From: Thermoanaerobaculia bacterium
GTDB taxonomy: Bacteria; Acidobacteriota; Thermoanaerobaculia; UBA5066
Assembly: GCA_022071945.1 (NCBI GenBank)
Contig: JAJVIN010000015.1
Coordinates: 1-64,000 of the forward strand
Direction: 5' to 3'
DNA: 64,000 bases
Shown here: positions 1,011-34,973 of the stretch, piece by piece
How positions within the stretch are numbered: position 1 is the stretch's first letter
Layout: each line of letters starts with the position of its first letter
Made by a program: the position numbers and the translations under genes
Notes under the pieces: model-generated
What the model was told of the DNA's origin: nothing
Seen by the model: the letters and a program-made list of their open reading frames with translations, nothing else
The model's database searches: none

Positions 1011-1577
1011 ATGGCGAAGAAGAAGCTCCAGATCGCGGGTGAGATCCGGAATCGGGTTAAGGAACTCAGGTTCATGAAGGCCTCGGAGTTGATCCCGCAC
1101 CCGCAGAACTGGAGGAAGCACCCGGACAAGCAGAGGGAGGGACTCCTCGGGAGCCTCAAGGAGATCGGGTTCGCGGACGCCCTCCTGGCCTTCGAGACGC
1201 CCTCCGGTCTCCAGCTCATCGACGGACACCTCCGGGCCGAGACGGCACCGGAAACGACCGTTCCCGTCCTGGTGCTCGACCTGGATGAACGGGAAGCCCG
1301 GATTCTCCTGGCGACTCTCGACCCGCTCGCCTCGATGGCGTCGACGGACACGGAAGCACTCCAGTTCCTCGTCGACTCGATCACTCCGACTCACGAGGAG
1401 ATGGCGGGGCTCCTGGCAGAGATCGCTCCGCTCACGGCGCCGACCGAGGACGAACTGGCGGAAACCGACATCCTGATGACCTGGGGCGTCGTCATCGAGT
1501 GTGAGAACGAGGAGCAGCAGCTCCAGCTCCTGGCGCGGTTCAACGAGGAGGGCCTGCAGTGCCGAGCCTTGATGTAG
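1011..1577 (+). CDS. ParB/Srx-fold N-terminal domain protein, first gene of a four-gene cassette
   Basis: A 188-residue protein. The ATG at 1011 follows a purine-rich ribosome-binding stretch (AGGGAGAGAG). Residues about 15-100 match a ParB N-terminal (ParB/sulfiredoxin-fold) domain: an ELIPHPQNWRKH start, a GLLGSLKEIGFADALL helix, and LIDGHLRAET in place of the usual (I)xDGHxR motif, followed by VPVLVLDLDEREA. The Lys/Arg-rich start could contact DNA. Stand-alone ParB-like domains of this size occur in phages and next to DNA methylases, where they act as DNA-binding or CTP/ATP-using factors rather than in chromosome partition. The end overlaps the next gene by 19 bp, and that gene's ribosome-binding site lies inside this one, so translation is probably coupled. 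Assignment to the ParB fold is good; the biochemical role is unknown. Confidence 0.75.
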   Translation: MAKKKLQIAGEIRNRVKELRFMKASELIPHPQNWRKHPDKQREGLLGSLKEIGFADALLAFETPSGLQLIDGHLRAETAPETTVPVLVLDLDEREARILLATLDPLASMASTDTEALQFLVDSITPTHEEMAGLLAEIAPLTAPTEDELAETDILMTWGVVIECENEEQQLQLLARFNEEGLQCRALM

Positions 1578-2674
1578 CGGTGTCATGTCCGGTGACGCGG
1601 AGTCCGCGCGTGATGCAGATCGAGGCGATGTACGACGTCCCGCCCTCGCAGCGGTCCGAGCGGACCTGGCACGTGGACCTGCCGATCGAGTCGCTCGAAT
1701 GGAGTGTCGGCCTCATCTGCGGGCCGTCCGGGACGGGCAAGAGCACGGTGGCGAGGAGAGTCTTCGGGGACATCGACGCTCCGCTGGCCTGGAGCCCCGG
1801 CAAGTCGATTCTCGACGAGTTCCCGAGGGAGATGTCGATTCACGACGTCCTGGCCTTCATGGGAGGGGTCGGGTTCTCCTCGACGCCGTCGTGGTTCCGG
1901 CCGTACCAGCACCTCTCGAACGGGGAGCAGTTCCGGGTCTCGATGGCCCGACGCCTCGCGGAGGCCTCGCTCTCGGAATCGAAGCTCGCGGTGGTCGACG
2001 AGTTCACGTCGGTCGTCGATCGCCAGGTGGCGCAGATCGTCTCGCATGGCGTCCAGCGCGTGACACGTGCCCGCGGGTTGCGGTTCGTGGCGGTCAGCTG
2101 CCACGCAGACATCATCGACTGGCTCCAGCCCGACTGGATCTACTTCCCGGCGAGCAACGAGTTCGTCCGGAGGGAGCTTCAACGACGCCCCAGCATCCAG
2201 CTGGATGTCTGTCGGGTTCCGAATTCCGCATGGACCTACTTCAAGCAGCATCACTATCTGAGCGGCAAGCTCCAGGGGAGCGCGATCTCGTTCGGGGGCT
2301 TCGTTGGCGAGAAGTGCATCGCGTTCTCCGCCATCACGCGGTTCCCGCACCCGAAAGCCAAGAACATCATGAAGGGACACCGGACGGTCGTTCTCCCGGA
2401 CTGGCAGGGGATCGGGATCGGAGGCCGGCTCGACGACTGGATCGGCGAGTGGTGCGCGAAGTCCGGGCAGCGGTACCTGAACACGGTGGCGCACCCGGCG
2501 ATGATTGCCTACTACAACAAGTCTCCGCGCTGGCGATTGCTGGCGCACTCCAACGTCGGTCCGGAAGCGACACTGAAGATCGGAACGACGAGCAAGATGG
2601 CGAAGCGGATGGCGTCCGTGCGGGTGCTCCAGCTTCGTTCCTTCGAGTACATCCCCGAGAGGTTCAGAAGATGA
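1559..2674 (+). CDS. ABC-type ATPase fused to a Mom-like GNAT acyltransferase domain
   Basis: A 371-residue protein. The GTG at 1559 is preceded by GAGGAGG at 1545-1551 with a 7-base spacer, better than at the later ATG 1613. Residues about 20-210 form a soluble ABC ATPase: Walker A GPSGTGKST, signature-like LSNGEQFRVSMARRL, Walker B LAVVDEF, switch-His segment VAVSCH. There is no membrane domain, so it is not a transporter. Residues about 220-350 resemble a GNAT fold, with HHYLSG, HRTVVLPDWQGIGIGGRL (the acyl-CoA pyrophosphate loop) and a C-terminal W-containing strand. Phage Mu Mom, which converts adenine to a carbamoylmethyl derivative, belongs to the GNAT superfamily. The ATPase could load or remodel DNA or switch the transferase. 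It is coupled by ATGA overlap to the PanD homologue. The domain calls are firm; DNA modification is inferred from context. Confidence 0.75.
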   Translation: MPSLDVAVSCPVTRSPRVMQIEAMYDVPPSQRSERTWHVDLPIESLEWSVGLICGPSGTGKSTVARRVFGDIDAPLAWSPGKSILDEFPREMSIHDVLAFMGGVGFSSTPSWFRPYQHLSNGEQFRVSMARRLAEASLSESKLAVVDEFTSVVDRQVAQIVSHGVQRVTRARGLRFVAVSCHADIIDWLQPDWIYFPASNEFVRRELQRRPSIQLDVCRVPNSAWTYFKQHHYLSGKLQGSAISFGGFVGEKCIAFSAITRFPHPKAKNIMKGHRTVVLPDWQGIGIGGRLDDWIGEWCAKSGQRYLNTVAHPAMIAYYNKSPRWRLLAHSNVGPEATLKIGTTSKMAKRMASVRVLQLRSFEYIPERFRR

Positions 2675-3039
2675 GGTGTTTCGTACGGGCGAAGATCCAC
2701 GGGATCACGGTGACGGACAAGTCGGTCGACTACCACGGCTCGGTCTCGATCGGAAAGGACCTGCTGAGGGCCGCGGGCATCGACCCTTACGAGCGGGTCG
2801 AGATCGTCAACCTGACCAACGGGCAGCGGTGGGCGACGTATGCGATTCCGGCTCCGGAGGGTGAGTTCACGCTGAACGGGGGCGGTGCCAGGCTTGGCGA
2901 GAACGGGGATCGGTGCGTGGTGATGGCGTTCGACTTCAAGGCCCAGTTCGGTCCGGAGCCCGCGCAGGTCGTCTTCTGCAAGGCGCAGGCTGGGAAGAAC
3001 GTGATCTCCGAGGTTACGGAATACCGTGCGAGTGCTTGA
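2671..3039 (+). CDS. panD: PanD-type pyruvoyl-dependent aspartate 1-decarboxylase homologue
   Basis: A 122-residue protein, the usual PanD length. Against E. coli PanD it keeps Lys8 and His10 (KIHGITVT), Tyr21, the Gly23-Ser24 self-cleavage pair that forms the pyruvoyl group (DYHGSVSIG), the TNGQRWATYAI block with the substrate-binding Arg, Thr and Tyr, and an Asn-Gly-Gly-Gly turn matching the Asn72 region. PanD normally makes beta-alanine from aspartate for pantothenate and CoA. Here no other pantothenate gene is nearby. The start codon shares ATGA with the stop of the ABC-GNAT gene, and the end overlaps the CoA-transferase gene by 14 bp, so it belongs to the same cassette. It may supply a beta-alanine or related amine group for that cassette; the substrate could also be another acidic amino acid. 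Confidence 0.85.
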   Translation: MRCFVRAKIHGITVTDKSVDYHGSVSIGKDLLRAAGIDPYERVEIVNLTNGQRWATYAIPAPEGEFTLNGGGARLGENGDRCVVMAFDFKAQFGPEPAQVVFCKAQAGKNVISEVTEYRASA

Positions 3040-3700
3040 ACTCGGCTCGTTCATCGTCCCGGCGTACGCGGGGATGGTGCTGGCGGAGCAGGGACACGAT
3101 GTCGAGAAGTGGTGGACGGGGGACGACCCCGTGCTCCACCTCAATGCCGGGAATCAGCTCTGGCGATGGCTGAACGAGCCGAAGACGCTCGTCGAGAAAC
3201 GGGTCTCGCGAGAAGCTCTCGAGAAAGCCCTTCCGGCCTTCGACGTCGTCATCGAGAACATCCGGCCGGGGACCTGGAAGGCCTGGGGCATCGATCGGGC
3301 GGCCCTGGCCGCGCGCCATCACATCCGCTGGGTCTCTATGGAGGCCGAACTCGATGGCGGCCGGAGCTTCGATGCCGTCGCGCAAGCCCAGGCTCTCGGA
3401 GGCGTCTCGCCTCCGATCCCGTTCTACATCGGCGACACGGCTGGGGGTCTCTGGCTCGCCTTCAAGGCGCTGGCGTCATCCGAACCCGGCCACTTCCGGC
3501 TTTTCCAGGCTTCGTGTCTCGCGAAGCTCGTCGAGGGTGAGCTGATGGTTCCGCGCAAGGCCTGGGACCGCACGCTCTACCGCCTCGATGCGGACGGCGC
3601 GGCGGTCGAGTTCCGCGGCGAGATCGTCCGGGAACCGCTCAGGGATGATGAGTGGCGGAGGAGGAATCTCCAGCACAGGAAGGGGAGGATCCTGATCTAG
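3026..3700 (+). CDS. Half-length class III (CaiB/BaiF/Frc-type) CoA transferase
   Basis: A 224-residue protein with a GTG start overlapping the PanD gene. The N-terminus (RVLELGSFIVPAYAGMVLAEQGHDVEKW) is the Rossmann-like opening of class III CoA transferases, followed by FDVVIENIRPGTWKAWGID. Residues about 115-150 read FDAVAQAQALGG...FYIGDTAGGLWLAFKAL, and Asp137 matches the aspartate that carries the acyl-CoA intermediate in formyl-CoA transferase. Family members are normally about 380-430 residues and form interlocked dimers. This one lacks roughly the C-terminal half, yet keeps the catalytic residue, so it may be a minimal or repurposed form rather than a broken gene. It is the last gene of the cassette; a converging gene starts 31 bp on. 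Confidence 0.7.
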   Translation: MRVLELGSFIVPAYAGMVLAEQGHDVEKWWTGDDPVLHLNAGNQLWRWLNEPKTLVEKRVSREALEKALPAFDVVIENIRPGTWKAWGIDRAALAARHHIRWVSMEAELDGGRSFDAVAQAQALGGVSPPIPFYIGDTAGGLWLAFKALASSEPGHFRLFQASCLAKLVEGELMVPRKAWDRTLYRLDADGAAVEFRGEIVREPLRDDEWRRRNLQHRKGRILI

Positions 3701-3731: not shown

Positions 3732-5507
3732 CTAGAGGCCCATCTTCTCCCACCCCAGGTCATCCTCCGCTCTCTGCATACATCTCTGGTAGAAGGCCTT
3801 GGTCCGCAGGAACGCTGTCTTCTCGTTCTGTAACTGATCTTGGTAGGGACTTTCCAACGCCGCCTTCTTGATGATCGGGACCACTTTGTTCACAGCTAGG
3901 GTCTTCAGGGTCTCGGTGAACTCTGTCTCCATCGACGTGGACTTGCCGAACCTCTCGGCCAGTTTCTCAAGGTCTTTGTGGTTCAGCAGAGCCTGAATGA
4001 GAAGCGCCCATAGCAGATTCCAGCCCCTCTGGATGAACTGAAAAGAGGGGCCTTTGTTCTCCTCGACGTACCGAAGAAGAGCCCGCCGCCTGAGGTGAAT
4101 CTTGTAGGTCAGCACGATTCGCTTCAGGTCTACCTGGAGGAGGCTGTCGGGAAACGTCTTTCGGAACAGTTTCTCCTCCTCGAACACGTCGCCGATGCGA
4201 GACATCCTGTCGATCTCACCTTGAACGGACAAGAGGGTTTGGGCAAGGGGTCGAATCTGGATCGGCTTCTGGTTCTTGTCGATGTCCATCTCCTCGAGTT
4301 CTTCGAGGCTGTAACTCTCCCAGCTCTTCTCCTGCCTTTCGTAGAAGAGGCTCAACTCCTCACAGAACCGATCCTCGAGATCCACCTGAATTTGCTCGCT
4401 GGCTCTGAGGTTCCACGGGTCGACCGGGTTTTGTTTGTTGGTGCTGATCGTGACGCCAACGGAAAACGGGGGCTCAGCCCGGTCGATGACCTTGGCCAAG
4501 ACTTCGATCTGGTCGAGGCGGTCGCGATTCTGGAGATAGACTGGGTGGTCCTTTCTCTGCTCCACGAATCGGGCCAGCGAGGTCAGTGTTTGGGCACCGT
4601 TCAGAACGCGGGGTTCGGTGAGGACTATCGTGCCATCCTCGACACTGAGATGCTCCGCTGACAGAGTCACGCCGTTGTGGTTGAAGGCGAATATCGATGG
4701 GTCATCAGAGGAGTCGAGGACGATTCTCTCGAAAGCTCTTTTGAGCGAACGGTTCGCAGACCGCTCTTCACTCAGGCCAAACCTGATGTTTCTTTCGAAC
4801 AGCCGGGCGCCCATGGCCTGGTAGAGGGCATAGAGGTCCATTAGCCTGGCGAATCCAACGTGCAAGCGCTCGCCGGCGACATGCGACCTTTCCAGCGGCG
4901 CCGAGAGCCGAACGGGATACTTGTGTGTCTTCCGGATGTGCTTCGCGGTCCTGCCTCTCGTCTCAGAGGAGCGGAACTCGAATGTCAGTTCCACTGGTCG
5001 GTCCTGGCCGAAGTACGAGCCGATCAGGTGGTTCTTTGATTCGAGGTCCTCTCGGAGGTGCTCAAGCCCCTTGCTCTGATCAGCCTTCTCCACGGAACCC
5101 TTGAAGACAAAGACGATCAAGACGCGGTCGATCAGGCCCTGCTTCTCATTGAGATCTGCCCGCAACCTGCCGAGGAAGTTGTTCTCGGTGTAGGCCGCTT
5201 TTGGGTTTCCGAAGACCCGCTCCATTCCGGAATCAACAAGCCTGTGCAGCGAGTCTTTGAAGAGGTTGTGGTCCTCTGACCACTTGAACTGGAATAGGTA
5301 GAGATTGCGGGTTTTCCCGTCGATGTGGTACGCGTCGAGACCGTGGTCATAGGACCCGAACGCGCATCGCTCGGCCGCATCGTCGATCGGCAGTCCGAAC
5401 TCCCGTGAAAGGTAGACTGCGGCGAAGTAGTCCTCCTTCTTGCCGCCGAGGCTCTCGTGGAGTCGGCCCCAGGCTACCTTCAGATCGGATTCGGTGATCT
5501 GTCGCAT
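3732..5507 (-). CDS. AIPR-family abortive infection / phage-resistance protein
   Basis: A 591-residue protein. Features of the AIPR family (Pfam PF10592) are clear: FNHNGVTLSAE, VLNGAQTLTSL, and TISTNKQNPVDPWNLRASEQIQVDLE. The N-terminal 100 residues (AFGSYDHGLDAYHID, YLFQFKWS) resemble a PD-(D/E)XK-like module, with Asp and Gln-x-Lys in the expected spacing. AIPR proteins are found in abortive-infection systems and next to restriction-modification genes, and a nuclease role is plausible. The gene is the most distal of the leftward set after ASCH, with 105 bp in between, so it may have its own promoter. It converges on the four-gene cassette. The family call is firm; the trigger and target are unknown. 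Confidence 0.8.
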   Translation of the reverse strand: MRQITESDLKVAWGRLHESLGGKKEDYFAAVYLSREFGLPIDDAAERCAFGSYDHGLDAYHIDGKTRNLYLFQFKWSEDHNLFKDSLHRLVDSGMERVFGNPKAAYTENNFLGRLRADLNEKQGLIDRVLIVFVFKGSVEKADQSKGLEHLREDLESKNHLIGSYFGQDRPVELTFEFRSSETRGRTAKHIRKTHKYPVRLSAPLERSHVAGERLHVGFARLMDLYALYQAMGARLFERNIRFGLSEERSANRSLKRAFERIVLDSSDDPSIFAFNHNGVTLSAEHLSVEDGTIVLTEPRVLNGAQTLTSLARFVEQRKDHPVYLQNRDRLDQIEVLAKVIDRAEPPFSVGVTISTNKQNPVDPWNLRASEQIQVDLEDRFCEELSLFYERQEKSWESYSLEELEEMDIDKNQKPIQIRPLAQTLLSVQGEIDRMSRIGDVFEEEKLFRKTFPDSLLQVDLKRIVLTYKIHLRRRALLRYVEENKGPSFQFIQRGWNLLWALLIQALLNHKDLEKLAERFGKSTSMETEFTETLKTLAVNKVVPIIKKAALESPYQDQLQNEKTAFLRTKAFYQRCMQRAEDDLGWEKMGL

Positions 5508-5612
5508 GACAACCTCCCCTTGGATCCTTCAGTGGAAGGATCGAGACTTCGTCCTCGGTGCCAGGATTCCACTTGTTCCGACGCCACGCAAGCGATTGAT
5601 TCTGCTCTGAAT

Positions 5613-5945
5613 CTAGAGGTCCACCTCGAATAGCCCCAGCTTCCCGGCCATCGGCACCGGCTTAATCGGACGCGGATTCGCCAGGACCCATCCATACGGC
5701 CCTTCGAACCACGGCGAGGGGTGCGCCTCCACGACGTCGACGAGATCGACGATTCCGAGGATGCTCGAGTACAGGGATGGGATGGCTGCCTTCGGAACGA
5801 ACTGTGAGAGTGGGCTCCAGTTCGTGGCTCCCACGTGAATGAGGAGCGGACCCCGGTACTTTGTCGTCCAGGTCCGGTTCTCGATGTCCTTGATGCCCGC
5901 CACGATGAGGGCGGCCCACGGCTGGCGGATGGTGATGGCCTTCAT
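5613..5945 (-). CDS. Small ASCH-domain protein
   Basis: A 110-residue protein that is essentially one ASCH domain. The start KAITIRQPWAALIVAGIKDIENRTW and the following KYRGPLLIHVG are typical of this PUA-related RNA/nucleotide-binding fold. Similar small ASCH proteins are common in phages and plasmids, and some ASCH proteins hydrolyse modified nucleosides such as N4-acetylcytidine. It lies between the sliding-clamp gene and the AIPR gene on the same strand, with 63 bp upstream. The N-terminal Lys and the Glu-Asn-Arg triplet suggest a working domain. The substrate cannot be inferred, though a modified-nucleoside role would suit the neighbouring candidate modification cassette. Confidence 0.8.
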   Translation of the reverse strand: MKAITIRQPWAALIVAGIKDIENRTWTTKYRGPLLIHVGATNWSPLSQFVPKAAIPSLYSSILGIVDLVDVVEAHPSPWFEGPYGWVLANPRPIKPVPMAGKLGLFEVDL

Positions 5946-6008
5946 GTCTACTCTCTGAAGTGGCGCGGGAGGCGTCGGGGTTTCGCTCGACGCTGCTCCT
6001 CGGGGCCG

Positions 6009-29448: not shown

Positions 29449-30282
29449 TTACGTCTTTTTTGCGCCCTCCTCGCGACCCACCCTCTTCGCCAGCTCTCGC
29501 ACCACCCCCACGAGACACCACCGGTACTCCAGAAGCCGGTCCCAGTTCGGCGGCACCAGCGGCGGGTGCGACGGGTTGTCCGGACTCAGAATCCACCGCT
29601 TGCTATACCCGTCGTGACGGAACCGCTTCACCATCGTCTCGCCGTCAATCCAGAAGACCACCACGTCCAGCTCCTCGAGCTTGCCGATGTCCGTCATCGG
29701 CTGCACGAAGACCATGTCGCCATCCTCGTAGGTCGGTGACATCGAGTCCCCCACGACCCGGATCACCTTGTACCCCTTCATCTGCGCCCGCTCGGCTACC
29801 ACCTTCGGGAGACTCACGTCCTCGTAGAACTGCGTCCACTGCGGGTACCGGTTCGTCCCCGCCGCCGCCAGCGCCTCCACCGGTAGCCGCACCTCCGGGA
29901 ACCCCACGAGCTTCACCGGACGCCCGTAGTCGGTGGGGCCGACGTCATACCCCCGGGCCCGGAGCGCATCGATGATCAGCTGCTTCAGGACGGCTTCTCG
30001 ATCGGCCTCCGTCTGCCGGACGAGTTCCTCCACGACCTGATCGACGTCGCCATCCAGGTCGAGGACGTCCTGCGCCTTCTCCCCGATGAGCTTGCTGGGA
30101 TGGACTCCCATGGCACCCGCCATCCGGAAGAGAGCCTCCACCGAGATGCCCCGGATCTTTCCGTGCTCGTAGCGGCTCCAGGAAGGGGGCTCGAGACCGA
30201 CGGAAGCCGCGATGGGCGCGACGGGACGGCCGGCGCGAGCGGCCTTGATTCTTTGGCCTAAGGCGACGGGATCGAATTCCAT
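29449..30282 (-). CDS. CI/LexA-type phage repressor (HTH + S24 peptidase)
   Basis: A 277-residue repressor read from MEFDPVALGQRIKAAR; ATG 30288 is an alternative. Residues 1-70: XRE-type helix-turn-helix (VAPIAASVGLEPPSWSRYEHGKIRGISVEALFRMAGAMG). Residues about 155-260: S24 peptidase domain, with the Ser nucleophile in RVVGDSMSPTYEDGDMVFVQP and the general-base Lys in GETMVKRFRHDG. Such proteins cleave themselves when RecA is activated, so the island is probably held silent and released by DNA damage, like lambda CI. It is divergent from the cro-like gene, and an 18-bp palindrome covers its start codon, which suggests autorepression. Confidence 0.9.
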   Translation of the reverse strand: MEFDPVALGQRIKAARAGRPVAPIAASVGLEPPSWSRYEHGKIRGISVEALFRMAGAMGVHPSKLIGEKAQDVLDLDGDVDQVVEELVRQTEADREAVLKQLIIDALRARGYDVGPTDYGRPVKLVGFPEVRLPVEALAAAGTNRYPQWTQFYEDVSLPKVVAERAQMKGYKVIRVVGDSMSPTYEDGDMVFVQPMTDIGKLEELDVVVFWIDGETMVKRFRHDGYSKRWILSPDNPSHPPLVPPNWDRLLEYRWCLVGVVRELAKRVGREEGAKKT

Positions 30283-30298
30283 TGGCATAGATGCCAAT
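30281..30298. promoter_or_regulatory. Palindromic operator overlapping the repressor start
   Basis: ATTGGCAT-AG-ATGCCAAT is a perfect 8+8 inverted repeat with a 2-bp centre, at the repressor start codon in the repressor/cro interval. It is a good candidate operator for autoregulation by the CI-like protein. Confidence 0.6.
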
Positions 30299-30333
30299 TG
30301 TGCACCACGAGGCGGAAAGAGTCTAGAATTGCA

Positions 30334-30362
30334 TTGCGAATTGCGGTAATTACGCCTAAATT
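30334..30362 (+). promoter_or_regulatory. Putative rightward promoter of the cro-int operon
   Basis: TTGCGA (30334-30339), 17-bp spacer, TAAATT (30357-30362), with the cro-like ATG 10 bp further on. Repeated AATTACG segments lie in and after the spacer and may be part of an operator. Inferred from the consensus only. Confidence 0.45.
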
Positions 30363-30371
30363 ACGTTTACC

Positions 30372-30608
30372 ATGACTCTCAACGTTCGGACGACCCTCCG
30401 CGCCCTCCACATCCCACACGGCCGCTTCGCCGCCGCCATCGGGGCTCGCCCCGAGACCCTCTGCCGCTGGATGAAGGGCACCAACAGGCCCCGCGCGGAT
30501 TTCGTCTACCGGATCCTCGCCTTTCTCAACCAGCCCTCCCACCTCGAGCAGCTGGGACGTACCGAGCCCTTCCGGCTCGAGGAGCTGTTCTCCGAGGAGG
30601 CCGCGTGA
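30372..30608 (+). CDS. Cro-like small HTH protein
   Basis: A 78-residue helix-turn-helix protein (LRALHIPHGRFAAAIGARPETLCRWMKGTNRPRADFVYRIL), divergent from the CI-type repressor and first in the rightward cascade. Size, place and opposite orientation suggest the Cro-like partner of the genetic switch. It shares GTGA with the next gene. The HTH assignment is firm; the Cro role is from context. Confidence 0.75.
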   Translation: MTLNVRTTLRALHIPHGRFAAAIGARPETLCRWMKGTNRPRADFVYRILAFLNQPSHLEQLGRTEPFRLEELFSEEAA

Positions 30609-30913
30609 TCGGTGTCTCTTCTGAACCGTCTTCGTCTGAGTTCCCGGTCTTCGACGTGACGTTCGAGGCGGAGGTGGTCCAGTGCCGCCACCGTCCCGAC
30701 CTCGTGACGTGGCACTGCCAGAGATGCGGGGTTCCGGTCGAGATGACCGATGACGAGCGGGCCGAGTACGCCGTCTCCCGGTGCCGGGAAGAGTCGCGTC
30801 CCCTGCGGGCCCGTCTCGACGGAGAGGTCGTCGGCACGCTCTTCCCCTCGGGTCTCTTCGTTCCGGACAAGCGGCGCAGGCGCAGCTCGGGCTCCCGCAG
30901 GAGGACGTCATGA
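30605..30913 (+). CDS. Small protein with a possible zinc-binding Cys pair
   Basis: A 102-residue product from GTG 30605, overlapping the cro-like gene by GTGA and the exonuclease gene by ATGA. It contains CRHRPDLVTWHCQRCGVPVEMT: a Cys-x2-Cys pair plus a nearby Cys and His that could bind zinc. The C-terminus is strongly basic (DKRRRRSSGSRRR), fitting nucleic-acid binding. No family is recognised; the double overlap in a coupled operon supports it as a gene. Confidence 0.6.
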   Translation: MIGVSSEPSSSEFPVFDVTFEAEVVQCRHRPDLVTWHCQRCGVPVEMTDDERAEYAVSRCREESRPLRARLDGEVVGTLFPSGLFVPDKRRRRSSGSRRRTS

Positions 30914-31956
30914 CACCGTGTGTGGAGGAGAGAGTGGTTGGGACTCCCGAGGAGTTCCTTGCCGGGGGAGGGGTTGGTTCAGATGGAGGGTCTCCGGTCG
31001 TCCTGGTGCCTTCTTCCGAGTCGGAGTGGCTCGAGGCCCGGCTCTCCGGGATCTCCGGATCGGACGTCGCGGCCATCCTCGGGCTCAGCCCCTTCCGGTC
31101 TCCGATCGACGTCTTCTGCGAGAAGCTCCGGCTCGTCGAGGGTCCGTCGGAATCCCTGCCCATGAGGGTCGGGAAGGCCCTCGAGCCCTTCCTGGTCGCC
31201 GAGTACAACCGGCAAACAGGGTTCGAGGCTCGTCCAGCCACGGCTCTCTACCGGAGTTCCCGGCATCCCTGGATGCTCGGAACTCCGGACGCATTCGTCG
31301 CCTCTCCCTCTCTCGGCGTCGAGTTCAAGACCGCGAGCGTCCGTTCGGAGCGCTTCTGGGGAGACGGCGAGGACGCCATCCCCGACTACTACCTCACCCA
31401 GATCGCCTGGTACGCCGCCATCACCGGAATCGACACCTGGAACTGCGCCGTCCTCATCGGCAACGCGGACTTCCGCATCTACACCATCCGGAGAGACCCG
31501 GCTCTCGAGCAGCTCCTCATCGAGAAGGCCCAGGAGTTCTGGGAGAAGCACGTCCTCACCCAGGAACCACCGGCTCTCGATGGCTCCTCCTCTTGCGACG
31601 CCTATCTGAGGGCCCGGTTCCCGCGCTCCTCCGCGTCTCTCCGCTCCTCCAACCCGGTCGAGGACGCCCTGGCGGCCGAGATGGCTCGCGTCCGCTCCGA
31701 ACTCGCGGAGCTGGAGCGGCAGAACGCCGCCCTGGAGGCCCGGATGAAGCTCGCCATTGGCGAGGCCCAGGGGATTCAGGGTGAGGGCTGGAGAGCCACC
31801 TGGAAGCGCACGAAGGACTCCTCGGTCACCGACTGGGAAAGCGTCGTGAAGCACCTCCCCCAGGACGACCACATCAAGAACCTCGTCCGCGGCGCGACCC
31901 GCAGGAAGGCCGGCACGCGGCGGTTCCTCTTCAAGACGGAAGGAGACAGCGAATGA
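30910..31956 (+). CDS. YqaJ-type phage recombination exonuclease
   Basis: A 348-residue protein from the ATG that shares ATGA with the upstream gene. Residues about 36-210 are a YqaJ/lambda-exonuclease PD-(D/E)XK domain: RLSGISGSDVAAILGLSPFRSP, Glu92 (GKALEPF), Asp127 (LGTPDAF), and Glu138-x-Lys140 (GVEFKTAS) give the metal and catalytic set. The C-terminal part has a coiled-coil stretch (LAAEMARVRSELAELERQNAALEARMK) and a basic tail. It would resect dsDNA 5' ends and hand 3' single strands to the RecT annealase encoded next. Confidence 0.88.
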   Translation: MTPCVEERVVGTPEEFLAGGGVGSDGGSPVVLVPSSESEWLEARLSGISGSDVAAILGLSPFRSPIDVFCEKLRLVEGPSESLPMRVGKALEPFLVAEYNRQTGFEARPATALYRSSRHPWMLGTPDAFVASPSLGVEFKTASVRSERFWGDGEDAIPDYYLTQIAWYAAITGIDTWNCAVLIGNADFRIYTIRRDPALEQLLIEKAQEFWEKHVLTQEPPALDGSSSCDAYLRARFPRSSASLRSSNPVEDALAAEMARVRSELAELERQNAALEARMKLAIGEAQGIQGEGWRATWKRTKDSSVTDWESVVKHLPQDDHIKNLVRGATRRKAGTRRFLFKTEGDSE

Positions 31957-32771
31957 CGACCGCCCTCACACCGGCCCAGCGAATGGGCACGCTCAAGGAC
32001 CTCCTCGAGAAGAACCGCGGCTCGCTCGCCACCGTTCTCCCGAGGCACCTCACCCCCGAGCGAATGATGAAGCTCGCCCTGGTCGCCGCGAGCCGCAACC
32101 CCGTGCTCCTCCAGTGCGACCAGAGGTCGATCCTCCAGAGCGTCATGGCCGCGGCCCAGCTCGGGCTCGATCCCTCGGGCACGCTCGGCTCGGCCTACCT
32201 CGTTCCCTACCGCAACAGAAAGAAGGGCACCTTCGAGTGCCAACTCATCCCCGGCTACCGCGGACTCATCGACCTCGCCCGGCGATCCGGAGAGATCGAA
32301 TCCATCGAAGCTCACGTCGTCTTCGAGAGGGACCACTTCGAGATCGCGTACGGACTCGAGCCGCAGCTCGTCCACAAGCCCCACCTCGGGCCGGACCCCG
32401 GCAACGTCATCCTCGTCTACGCGATCGCGCGGCTGAAGGGCGGGGCGAGGCAGTTCGAGGTGATGACGCGGGCGCAGGTGGAGTCCGTCCGCGCGAGGTC
32501 CCGAGCGGCAGACGACGGCCCGTGGAAGACCGACTTCGACGAGATGGCGCGGAAGACGGTCGTCCGCAGGCTCTGCAAGTACCTGCCGCTCTCGACCGAG
32601 CTGGCCGAGGCGCTCTCGCTCGGCGAGGAGGAGTCTCCCGTCATCGAGATCGAGCCGATCGGGCCGGATGACGAGGATCCCACTCCAACGGAGCCGACAT
32701 CGAAGGCCGCTGAACTCGCCGCGAAGCTCCGGAACTCCGCCCCCGAGGAGCCCGTCCGGGAGGCGGCGTGA
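31953..32771 (+). CDS. recT: RecT-family single-strand annealing protein
   Basis: A 272-residue RecT: LTPERMMKLALVAASRNPVLLQCDQRSILQSVMAAAQLGLDPSG, YLVPYRNRKKGTFECQLIPGYRGLIDLARRSGEIESIEAHVVFE and FDEMARKTVVRRLCKYLP are signature blocks. It pairs with the YqaJ exonuclease as a phage two-gene recombination system. It overlaps neighbours by ATGA on both sides. The acidic C-terminus (IGPDDEDPTPTEP) is usual for the family. Confidence 0.92.
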   Translation: MTTALTPAQRMGTLKDLLEKNRGSLATVLPRHLTPERMMKLALVAASRNPVLLQCDQRSILQSVMAAAQLGLDPSGTLGSAYLVPYRNRKKGTFECQLIPGYRGLIDLARRSGEIESIEAHVVFERDHFEIAYGLEPQLVHKPHLGPDPGNVILVYAIARLKGGARQFEVMTRAQVESVRARSRAADDGPWKTDFDEMARKTVVRRLCKYLPLSTELAEALSLGEEESPVIEIEPIGPDDEDPTPTEPTSKAAELAAKLRNSAPEEPVREAA

Positions 32772-33256
32772 AGGTCCTGGCGATCGATCCCGGACCGACG
32801 GTGAGCGGGCTCGTCCTCTTCGGGGACGGGATCGAGGCTCTCACCCGTTCCAACCACGAACTCCTCCGGCTCATCGGCAGCACGGAGTCGTTTCGCTCGG
32901 CGGACTTCCTCGCGATCGAGGAGGTCACGGGGCAGGGGCGGTTCGTCGGGCGAGACGAACTCCACACGATGGCCTGGGCAGGCCGGTTCATCCAGCAGTG
33001 GCTCCTCACCGGGCACCAGGAGGACGACGTCCTCTGGATCCCGCGTGCCAACGTCAAGAAGTACCTCCTGGGCCGCGTCACGGGTTCCGACACCGAGGTC
33101 CGCGCGGCCATCACCGATCGCTTCGGGGGCAAGGAGAAGGCGATCGGCAGGAACGCCAAGCCAGGACCTCTACACCGAATCAAGGGACATGAATGGGCCG
33201 CCCTGGCCGTCGCCCTGACGGCAATTCACGAGGTGGCCCGGGAGGCGGCAGCATGA
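32768..33256 (+). CDS. RuvC-fold Holliday-junction resolvase-like protein
   Basis: A 162-residue RNase H-fold protein. KVLAIDPGPTVSGLVLF holds the first catalytic Asp; FLAIEEV the Glu on strand 4; and HRIKGHEWAALAVALTAIHE the C-terminal helix with the final His/Glu set, as in RuvC and phage RuvC-like proteins. VLWIPRANVKKYLLGRVTGSDTEVRAAI is typical of the phage subgroup. Placed after recT, it likely resolves recombination intermediates. Confidence 0.8.
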   Translation: MKVLAIDPGPTVSGLVLFGDGIEALTRSNHELLRLIGSTESFRSADFLAIEEVTGQGRFVGRDELHTMAWAGRFIQQWLLTGHQEDDVLWIPRANVKKYLLGRVTGSDTEVRAAITDRFGGKEKAIGRNAKPGPLHRIKGHEWAALAVALTAIHEVAREAAA

Positions 33257-33540
33257 AAACGACCCCAACCCAGGTTTCACTCATTCCGGCGACCGAACTC
33301 GCGAAGATGCTCGGCGTCAGGACCGCGACGCTCGCCTACTGGCGTCGAAAAGGCAAAGGCCCGCAGGGCTGGACCTACGCGGGCGAGACGGTTGTCGTCT
33401 ACCCCGTCGCGGAGGTCGAGGCCTTCATCGCGGAGCGGCAGGCGAAGCGCGACGAGATGCTGGCCCTCGCGCGGGAGCGGGCACAGGTCCTCGTCGAGTA
33501 CGCGAGGCGTAGGAAAGAACTCAGGGAGGCGCGGGCATGA
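33253..33540 (+). CDS. MerR/AlpA-like excisionase candidate
   Basis: A 95-residue protein from ATG 33253 (ATGA overlap). It has a winged HTH of the excisionase type: IPATELAKMLGVRTATLAYWRRKGKGPQGWTYAGETVVVYPVAEVEAFIAER, followed by a basic helix. Position directly before and overlapping the integrase gene supports a role as recombination directionality factor. Confidence 0.75.
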   Translation: MKTTPTQVSLIPATELAKMLGVRTATLAYWRRKGKGPQGWTYAGETVVVYPVAEVEAFIAERQAKRDEMLALARERAQVLVEYARRRKELREARA

Positions 33541-34772
33541 AAGCCGCCCTGCCAGGTTTCGACTACGACCCCAAGACGCGCACGGCACGCTTCGAGTGCT
33601 GTGTGCCCGGGGCGTCGGGCCGGGCGCGGAGGCGGAAGACCATCCGGAACACGACTCGGGCCGAGGCGCTCACCGCCTGGAAGGAATTCAGAGAGAAGGT
33701 CGAGGCCGGAGAGATCGAGCGCGAGATCTGGACGTTCAAGGAATACGCGGACAAGTACCACCCGCAGATGGCCATGCGGACCGCGGAGTCGACTCGGAGG
33801 TCCGAGAAGTCGATTCTGAAGAAGCTCAACGCTCACTTCGGCACCCTCCGCCTCGACCGGATCACGGCGGCACACGTGCGTGACTTCGTGGCGGCGCTCC
33901 GTGGCGATGGCCTCAGCGCGGCCTCGGTCAACAGTTGCCTGCGGGTGCTCGTCAAGATCCTGCGAGACGCCGTCGACCGCGAGTGCCTCGACATCATCCG
34001 CATCCGGGGCCGGATCAAGCTCAGGGAAGAGCTTCCGCGCCTCGAGATGACGGCAGCCGAGCAGGCCCGGTTCCTGGCCGCCTTCGACGACGAGGCGGCC
34101 TTCCGGAGGCACCTCGCCGAGTCACGCCGTCCCGGCACCGTCTCCATCAGCACGTATTACGGCGACAAGCCCCGGGTCTTCGGGGGGCCCCTGAAGCCAG
34201 ATGGGGCGGCGGCCGGCTACTACTTCGAGCGATTCCGCTGGAGCCGGCCGCTCTTCGTGATCGCGCTGGAAACTGGCCTTCGTCGCGGAGACCTCCTGGA
34301 CCTTCGCTGGGATGCTGTGGACATCCCGGGAAGGACGATCCGGGTGAAGGTCCGCAAGACGAAGGAGACGGCGCTGATCGCTCTCTCGCCCGCCTGCATC
34401 GAGGCTCTCGAGGAGTGCCGGAGGCGGAAGGTCAGAGGCGCCCACGTCCTCCTGAACCCGGAAGGTCACCCCTACTCCACCACCCACGTCCGCGACTACT
34501 TCCTGATCGCCAAGAAGCTCGCCGGGATCAACCGTCGGCTCCGGTTCCATGACCTGAGACACACCTTCGCCTCGAATCTGGCCGCGATGGGGGTCAGCCT
34601 CCAGCTCATCCAGCGGCAGCTCGGACACGCCTCGATCACCCAGACGGAGCGGTACTCCCGGGTCTCCGAAGACGCCATCCGCGAACTGGGCAACTTTTTA
34701 TTTGAGAGGGCCCTCGCACGAACTCAAACACGAACTCGGGCCATTTCTGGGGGGTCCGGCGATGCGAGCTAA
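33537..34772 (+). CDS. int: Tyrosine recombinase / phage integrase
   Basis: A 411-residue integrase with N-terminal arm-binding part, SAM-like core-binding domain (TFKEYADKYHPQMAMRT to DRECLDIIRIRGR) and catalytic domain. The active-site residues are visible: Arg in LETGLRRGDLLDLRW, His-x2-Arg in FHDLRHTFASNLA, His in LGHASITQ and the nucleophile Tyr in TERYSRV. The gene ends 15 bp from the 3' end of tRNA-Arg, pointing at it, which strongly suggests that this gene is the insertion site. It is the last gene of the rightward cascade. Confidence 0.93.
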   Translation: MKAALPGFDYDPKTRTARFECCVPGASGRARRRKTIRNTTRAEALTAWKEFREKVEAGEIEREIWTFKEYADKYHPQMAMRTAESTRRSEKSILKKLNAHFGTLRLDRITAAHVRDFVAALRGDGLSAASVNSCLRVLVKILRDAVDRECLDIIRIRGRIKLREELPRLEMTAAEQARFLAAFDDEAAFRRHLAESRRPGTVSISTYYGDKPRVFGGPLKPDGAAAGYYFERFRWSRPLFVIALETGLRRGDLLDLRWDAVDIPGRTIRVKVRKTKETALIALSPACIEALEECRRRKVRGAHVLLNPEGHPYSTTHVRDYFLIAKKLAGINRRLRFHDLRHTFASNLAAMGVSLQLIQRQLGHASITQTERYSRVSEDAIRELGNFLFERALARTQTRTRAISGGSGDAS

Positions 34773-34787
34773 GTCCTTGAAAATGAA

Positions 34788-34830
34788 TGGTGCGCCCGCC
34801 GCGATTCGAACGCGGGACCTTCAGATCCGG
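34788..34830. other. Probable attachment site (attL/attR) at the tRNA-Arg 3' end
   Basis: The 3' half of the tRNA-Arg gene, including T-loop, acceptor stem and encoded CCA, borders the integrase gene. Tyrosine integrases commonly use this tRNA part as att core. I searched the rest of the window by eye for a second copy of the acceptor/T-arm sequence and found none, so the partner site is probably outside the window. Confidence 0.5.
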
Positions 34831-34865
34831 AGTCTGACGCTCTATCCGGGCTGAGCTACGGGCGC
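34788..34865 (-). tRNA. tRNA-Arg (anticodon CCG)
   Basis: Cloverleaf on the minus strand: acceptor GCGCCCG/CGGGCGC, D-arm GCTC...GAGC, anticodon stem TCAGA/TCTGA with loop CTCCGGA (anticodon CCG), T-arm CCGCG-TTCGAAT-CGCGG, discriminator A, encoded CCA at 34790-34788. Confidence 0.95.
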
Positions 34866-34896
34866 ATCCTGGTTTTCAAGGGACCGTGACCGAACT

Positions 34897-34973
34897 TGGG
34901 GTGAGAGACGGGATTTGAACCCGCGACCATCGGATCCACAGTCCGATGCTCTACCGACTGAGCTACTCTCACC
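34897..34973 (-). tRNA. tRNA-His (anticodon GTG)
   Basis: Minus-strand cloverleaf with the His-specific extra 5' G at 34973, acceptor GTGAGAG/CTCTCAC, anticodon loop CTGTGGA (GTG), T-loop TTCAAAT, discriminator C73 at 34900 and encoded CCA. Confidence 0.95.

Follow-up and report, generated by a model that had tools for sequence, protein, structure and literature searches.

A phage-type ParB/ABC-ATPase/GNAT module with an aspartate decarboxylase and a half-size CoA transferase: a candidate self-supplied system for beta-alanylation of DNA

The stretch of DNA analysed here (called the window: 64,000 nucleotides, positions 1 to 64,000 of the forward strand of contig JAJVIN010000015.1, assembly GCA_022071945.1) comes from a Thermoanaerobaculia bacterium of the Acidobacteriota and carries, close to its left end, a compact cassette of four genes. 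With slightly better than even confidence, this cassette is considered a self-contained unit of phage origin that both makes an acyl donor and modifies DNA with it, by placing a beta-alanyl group on a DNA base. The logic of the module, in which all parts serve one pathway, is well supported. What is established is a conserved module with a fixed gene order and nested dependence among its genes, the folds and intact catalytic residues of its enzymes, and a link between the coenzyme A (CoA) transferase and particular residues of the GNAT acyltransferase. The first-pass annotation had described four plus-strand genes, each overlapping the next, and had named their domains; the coordinates and the profile searches bear this description out.

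1011-1577, plus strand: ParB-like gene (188 residues, protein P0001)
1559-2674, plus strand: gene for an ABC-ATPase/GNAT fusion (371 residues, P0002)
2671-3039, plus strand: gene for PanD, an aspartate decarboxylase (122 residues, P0003)
3026-3700, plus strand: gene for a mini class III CoA transferase (224 residues, P0004)

The overlaps along this series are 19, 4 and 14 bases. The same four genes, in identical order, recur in roughly 13 separate viral lineages, the cultured phage Jace included, and in several prophages. In Rhodococcus phage Jace (catalogued also as Gordonia phage Jace), genes 85-88 are named ParB, ATP-binding, aspartate decarboxylase and hypothetical, and their identities to the window proteins, in gene order, are 31, 47, 52 and 58%. 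Jace is a temperate phage and is grown on R. erythropolis RIA 643. The possibility, raised in the first-pass annotation, that the genes would be found apart and in no conserved neighbourhood was checked, and the neighbourhood proved to be strongly conserved across viral lineages. When viral contigs were scanned with the CoA transferase, 11 loci were obtained, and PanD and ABC/GNAT genes lay upstream in all of them; the scan with the ABC/GNAT protein left 80 loci. These two queries were far more productive than peptide-pattern scans for PanD, which yielded little. The ABC/GNAT loci, with the window and phage records included, were merged at 90% identity into 63 clusters. Both PanD and the CoA transferase are present in 14 clusters (13 if one fragment is merged), the CoA transferase only in 3, neither in 46, and PanD only in none. 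In phages, the CoA transferase was seen only together with ABC/GNAT. In cellular genomes (84,980 species scanned), the CoA transferase has ten close relatives; six of them (L104-L108 and L113) are near PanD and/or ABC/GNAT genes, and four (L109-L112) have a different setting. The whole records of the ABC/GNAT loci that lack the donor genes, many of which are fragments, held no distant PanD or CoA transferase, except for a Hyphomicrobium PanD on another contig.

The presence of the CoA transferase is also reflected in the GNAT domain itself. Among 68 ABC/GNAT proteins, Asn308 (N308, window numbering) is found in 20 of the 21 that are accompanied by a CoA transferase and in 1 of the 47 that are not; for Tyr319 (Y319), the corresponding figures are 18/21 and 0/47. 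Because Fisher values for these residues ignore kinship, a tree of the ATPase domain only was built. It offers 13 edge-disjoint pairs that differ in the CoA transferase, and N308 is restricted to the carrier in 12 of the 13 and Tyr319 in 11. The sole exception is L113, whose PanD and CoA transferase genes both run across two frames, so that decay of the locus or errors in its sequence may be involved. One half of the tree of whole ABC/GNAT proteins contains most of the CoA transferase carriers, and the transferase was gained or lost several times. The structural model places N308 in a strand (residues 305-310) and Tyr319 in a helix (313-321). In many GNATs, a Tyr in the conserved motif of this region acts as the general acid. 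Tyr319 probably corresponds to it, as suggested by the end of the Pfam match at residue 320 (profile position 112 of 116) and by the YxxxGF-like spacing. In an automatic alignment of ABC/GNAT with three host GNATs, the stretch around N308 and Tyr319 was not aligned.

Individual loci show further variations. A terminase-like gene pair, judged by gene sizes and sequence starts, lies downstream in several of them. In an Alsobacter prophage (L104, 1067-1408 and 5633-5989), PanD is situated 3 kb upstream of ParB, and an ASCH-like antisense open reading frame (ORF) with no Pfam match separates ABC/GNAT from the CoA transferase. L006 (878-4138) and near-identical contigs have a second ABC/GNAT copy after the CoA transferase, with N308 and with His replacing Tyr319. 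In L108, a LAGLIDADG endonuclease gene (5016-5987) stands between ABC/GNAT and the CoA transferase, at the place expected for PanD.

The mini CoA transferase is a half-length variant of the class III enzymes. P0004 matches CoA_transf_3 (PF02515) with an E-value of 4e-9, over profile positions 4-112 of 366 only. Its AlphaFold2 (AF2) model, with a predicted local distance difference test (pLDDT) score of 78.8, resembles the CaiB/BaiF family protein 4ed9 (Z 18.9, root-mean-square deviation (rmsd) 2.2, 172 aligned residues within 1-212), and the structural alignments (VIA) mostly stop near residue 171-212. The N-terminal Rossmann half of class III enzymes (CaiB/Frc) is present, together with an Asp of the catalytic type. 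This residue, Asp137 (IGDTAGG), is invariant in 16/16 mini CoA transferases and lines up with the Asp found in relatives of full length; in class III CoA transferases, such an Asp forms an aspartyl-CoA thioester (PMC9813914). At 224 residues, as against about 350-430 in full-length class III enzymes, P0004 is too short for a complete member of the class, and it is the small domain and the C-terminal part that are missing.

The same enzyme is found in a second, chromosomal setting. In the actinobacterial loci L109-L112 (Promicromonospora, Streptomyces, Actinopolyspora and actinobacterium OK074), the mini CoA transferase is positioned between homologues of glutamate decarboxylase and aminobutyraldehyde dehydrogenase, in the same order in 4/4 (4707-8192 in L111). 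The decarboxylase matches TIGR01788 (E 2e-103, slightly under the equivalog cut-off) and GadB in the PDB (E 6e-80), and the dehydrogenase matches PRK13473 (E 8e-177, slightly under its cut-off). Judged by these matches, both neighbours would form gamma-aminobutyrate (GABA), and the trio is apparently a route to 4-aminobutyryl-CoA. The mini CoA transferase therefore accompanies makers of omega-amino acids in two settings that are unrelated, consistent with beta-alanine being activated with CoA in one and GABA in the other. It is because of the nesting of the genes, this independent omega-amino-acid setting and the co-variation of the GNAT residues that the parts of the cassette are assigned to one pathway.

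The presumed source of the omega-amino acid in the cassette is PanD. P0003 matches Asp_decarbox (PF02261, E 5e-29) as well as PanD in the PDB. When the cassette PanDs are aligned with E. coli PanD, the self-cleavage site Gly23-Ser24 and residues K8, H10, Y21, R53, T56, Y57 and N69 are kept in 13/13, and the predicted product is beta-alanine. P0003 scores 79 bits, below the equivalog cut-off of 106 of NCBIfam TIGR00223, and in a quick tree, the 13 cassette PanDs, with their shortened C-terminus, branch apart from the housekeeping enzymes. By these sequence measures, the cassette PanD is a divergent subfamily and not the housekeeping PanD. Since the host genome has its own panB-panC-panD operon elsewhere, it is also a spare copy. 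In the first-pass annotation, PanD was to make an amine-bearing unit and the CoA transferase was to activate an acyl group. This proposal is refined here: most likely, the two roles concern one compound, beta-alanine in the form of beta-alanyl-CoA.

The acyltransferase of the cassette, P0002, is a single polypeptide in which a complete set of ABC-ATPase motifs is followed by a GNAT domain, as in the phrog_11143 family, whose profile it matches over its full length (E 2.7e-91, residues 9-367); ABC_tran and Acetyltransf are matched too. The ATPase domain (about residues 1-205) has Walker A (GPSGTGKS), the signature (LSNGEQFR), Walker B (VVDEF) and the H-switch (SCH), and the GNAT domain (about 213-367) has the motif QGIGIG, the invariant pair H232-Y233, N308 and Y319. 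The ABC motifs and the QG of the CoA-binding loop are kept across an alignment of 36 ABC/GNAT sequences. In structure comparisons with the AF2 model (pLDDT 89.6), the ATPase part resembles ABC folds (Z of about 15-16). Foldseek searches with the full model were swamped by ABC transporters; the GNAT part was therefore assessed by the VIA row that covers residues 213-367, which gives GNAT 1y9k (Z 14.4, with an rmsd of 3.8 across 136 residues). In BFVD, a viral entry under the name aspartate 1-decarboxylase (A0A8S5PZ92) structurally matches the ABC/GNAT model at rank 10, perhaps through misnaming or fusion.

The partner of this protein is ParB-like. P0001 matches the PHROG ParB families phrog_620 (E 2e-12) and phrog_498 (E 3e-13), and no match was obtained in the Pfam profile search. 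A ParB gene adjoins ABC/GNAT in 57 of the 63 clusters, and in the window, it stands directly upstream, as expected of the phrog_11143 family. In most loci, the ParB partners end in a motif of about 30 residues, GVVIECENEEQQLQLLARFNEEGLQCRALM, of the general form (V/I)xCxxExxQxxLLxRxxxEGLxCRAL, encoded in the window at 1485-1577. The motif is found alike in loci with and without the CoA transferase and is a possible docking site for ABC/GNAT.

The case for DNA as the acceptor is built on the likeness to Mom. When an alignment of 14 Mom members is compared with the GNAT part of the ABC/GNAT family, a match with an E-value of 7e-5 results (49 columns, probability 63%), and the invariant His-Tyr of Mom aligns to the family-invariant H232-Y233. 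The controls gave E-values of 0.59 with ordinary host GNATs and 0.16 with a reversed profile. The 14-member alignment was needed for the match; the Mu Mom sequence on its own found none in the ABC/GNAT profile (E 0.58). A Mom model is also present among the BFVD structural matches of ABC/GNAT, at rank 35 (E 1e-4). The resemblance is a distant similarity and not proof. In phages with Mom-like GNATs, a ParB gene is adjacent or one gene away. Aeromonas phage PX29 (GU396103) encodes a homologue of Mom in addition to an ABC/GNAT protein. Base modification in Dpd systems involves a ParB-like partner (PMC12839542), and an ABC-ATPase/GNAT pair has been predicted to acylate a DNA base, according to the passage of PMC7824862 that cites Iyer 2013. 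The proposal of the first-pass annotation that the GNAT domain delivers its group to DNA is thus partly strengthened, by the distant Mom likeness, which ordinary GNATs do not share, and by the prior prediction cited in that passage. From this evidence, we infer that DNA is the acceptor and that a modified base is the product.

The proposed mechanism would proceed as follows. PanD would cleave itself to the pyruvoyl form and then convert aspartate to beta-alanine. The mini CoA transferase, by means of Asp137, would move CoA from a host acyl-CoA onto the carboxylate of beta-alanine to give beta-alanyl-CoA. The GNAT domain, with its classical CoA-binding loop and Tyr319 as general acid, would take the beta-alanyl group off CoA and place it on an exocyclic amino group in DNA, which would be N6 of an adenine, if Mom serves as the guide, or N4 of a cytosine. 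The ABC-ATPase and its ParB-like partner would bind, remodel or select the DNA for modification ahead of packaging. The bulky, positively charged mark may then shield the DNA of the element against restriction or other DNA-sensing defences. We infer this chain of substrates, and the protection of the element, from the gene content and residues described above. It is tentatively suggested, at a little under even confidence, that phages themselves make beta-alanyl-CoA from aspartate and beta-alanylate DNA bases with an ATP-driven, ParB-partnered acyltransferase, which would be a new class of DNA base, and that GNAT active sites switch donors with the gain or loss of the half-size CoA transferase.

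Several points weigh against such a reading. A protein or RNA could be the acceptor instead of DNA, and the likeness to Mom spans only the 49 columns around the HY region, with ELNR, S-x-x-D and YQAxN of Mom not aligned. Most ABC/GNAT loci are without donor genes, so the donor there is different or unassigned. Four loci (L037, L053, L071 and L108) have the CoA transferase and no PanD within the examined locus, which is probably explained by a beta-alanine supply from the host; the host genome of L108 encodes PanD on another contig. The CoA transferase lacks its second half, and its C-terminal part is modelled at low confidence, so its activity is uncertain. Finally, the window starts at the end of the contig, which cuts off the left part of the element and leaves it incomplete.

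Another explanation concerns the acceptor: the GNAT domain would acylate a protein, perhaps one of the virion or of the host at the time of packaging, a tRNA or a small molecule, and the ParB and ABC-ATPase parts would be regulatory. GNATs usually acylate proteins or small molecules, the solved structure matched here is an ordinary acetyltransferase, and the ParB/ABC-GNAT pair often adjoins terminase-like genes. These facts are set against the ParB-like partner in 57 of 63 clusters, against a profile that matches Mom while Mom fails to match ordinary GNATs, and against the ParB neighbours that Mom-like phage GNATs possess as well; a non-DNA acceptor is therefore judged unlikely. The order of the reactions can also be questioned. 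The CoA transferase and GNAT may load aspartate or another acid on the base, so that PanD would decarboxylate it on the DNA, and decarboxylases that act on DNA-borne amino acids are a precedent from thymidine hypermodification. The PanD gene is usually directly ahead of the CoA transferase gene, and the separate branch and shortened C-terminus of the cassette PanDs would suit such a task. It is nonetheless quite improbable, as the active-site residues of a PanD for free aspartate are retained, the actinobacterial mini CoA transferase accompanies makers of free omega-amino acids, and several otherwise intact loci have no PanD, which is easier to understand if the host supplies beta-alanine.

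A purely metabolic role of PanD and the CoA transferase, as auxiliary genes for pantothenate and CoA supply that lie by chance next to a separate ABC/GNAT system, is very unlikely. PanD normally serves pantothenate synthesis, and in Achromobacter phage 2-1 (L177, 3989-4384), it stands beside a DNA polymerase, with no ABC/GNAT or CoA transferase nearby; yet the gene order is kept across distant lineages, the GNAT residues co-vary with the CoA transferase, the host already has panBCD, and PanD accompanied by ABC/GNAT is never without the CoA transferase.

The genetic setting of the cassette is that of a phage-like element. To the right of the cassette are AIPR, an ASCH protein, a DNA polymerase III beta-like protein, DUF932, a GmrSD_N protein and BREX genes, which comprise BrxL, PglZ, an Eco57I-type methylase, a DUF6079 protein and BrxA. 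The statement of the first-pass annotation that the element also carries BREX and a type IV-like nuclease agrees with the BREX genes, AIPR and GmrSD-type protein found downstream. The element ends as follows:

29449-34972: right end of the element, with an S24 repressor, a YqaJ exonuclease, RecT and a tyrosine integrase

A gap of 18 bases separates the end of the integrase gene from a tRNA-Arg gene, and the cassette and BREX are carried on a tRNA-integrated, phage-like element. Directly left of the cassette, in the contig-end stretch 1-975, there is a DUF11-domain ORF (310-975). None of the relatives of the window genome carries P0002, with weak partial matches only, in 8/60 genomes, and the mini CoA transferase occurs in 1/149 genomes of the class, which is the window genome itself; for these two reasons, the cassette is regarded as mobile and not ancestral. 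A role as an accessory of BREX was considered and dropped because the relatives of the cassette are phage genes. The AIPR, GmrSD-type and BREX genes alongside the cassette would suit a bacterial defence unit belonging to the BREX island, in which the ABC-ATPase would be the sensor and GNAT the effector. Such a role is hardly probable given that almost all relatives come from phages or prophages, where terminase-like genes are often close by, and that the element has a phage-type integrase, RecT and YqaJ.

GNAT-type DNA modification has, to our knowledge, no settled acyl donor. A cassette that supplies its donor itself singles out a specific compound, beta-alanyl-CoA, and a specific product mass. 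If the reading is true, known chemistry would gain an amino-acyl DNA base, a new means of evading restriction and, for omega-amino acids, a class III CoA transferase of half size, and the N308/Y319 signature would mark which ABC/GNAT systems use a beta-alanyl donor. No link of PanD or the CoA transferase to DNA modification was found in the literature searched, and a 2026 Rhodococcus phage paper describes Jace and does not mention the cassette in the passages searched.

Known systems resemble the cassette in part. Mom of phage Mu, which forms N6-carbamoylmethyladenine, shares the GNAT fold, the distant profile similarity at His-Tyr, the phage setting and, in some Mom-like loci, the ParB neighbours, but it has no ATPase domain or donor genes, whereas the cassette keeps the classical CoA-binding loop QGxGxG. 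In the Dpd 7-deazaguanine system, a ParB-like protein (the ATPase DpdB, PMC12839542) also partners a DNA base-modifying enzyme; the chemistry there is base exchange by a transglycosylase and involves no acyl-CoA. PanD followed by a beta-alanine CoA transferase (act of C. propionicum) is a route to beta-alanyl-CoA in engineered yeast (PMC13067684). The comparison covered the two reaction types and their order, which match those of the cassette, but the act route runs on to acrylate through an ammonia lyase, while the cassette enzyme is a half-length class III protein beside an acyltransferase. The actinobacterial set of L109-L112 has the mini CoA transferase at 49-54% identity, likewise adjacent to a decarboxylase whose product is an omega-amino acid; in contrast, it is chromosomal, has no ABC/GNAT, ParB or PanD nearby, presumably yields 4-aminobutyryl-CoA and is apparently uncharacterised. 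Closest is the phrog_11143 family (Iyer 2013, in the passage of PMC7824862 that cites it), with its fused ABC-ATPase/GNAT, a ParB gene upstream in almost all loci and a full-length profile match. The window cassette differs in two added enzymes, which would make and activate the acyl group, and in N308 and Y319 of GNAT, which are generally missing in loci without the CoA transferase (1/47 and 0/47). The first-pass annotation knew of no characterised system with this set of genes, which still holds, but its novelty is narrower than was then supposed: the ParB/ABC/GNAT core is a previously predicted, uncharacterised family, and what is new, as far as the literature searched shows, is the donor-making half, its coupling to the GNAT residues and the half-size CoA transferase.

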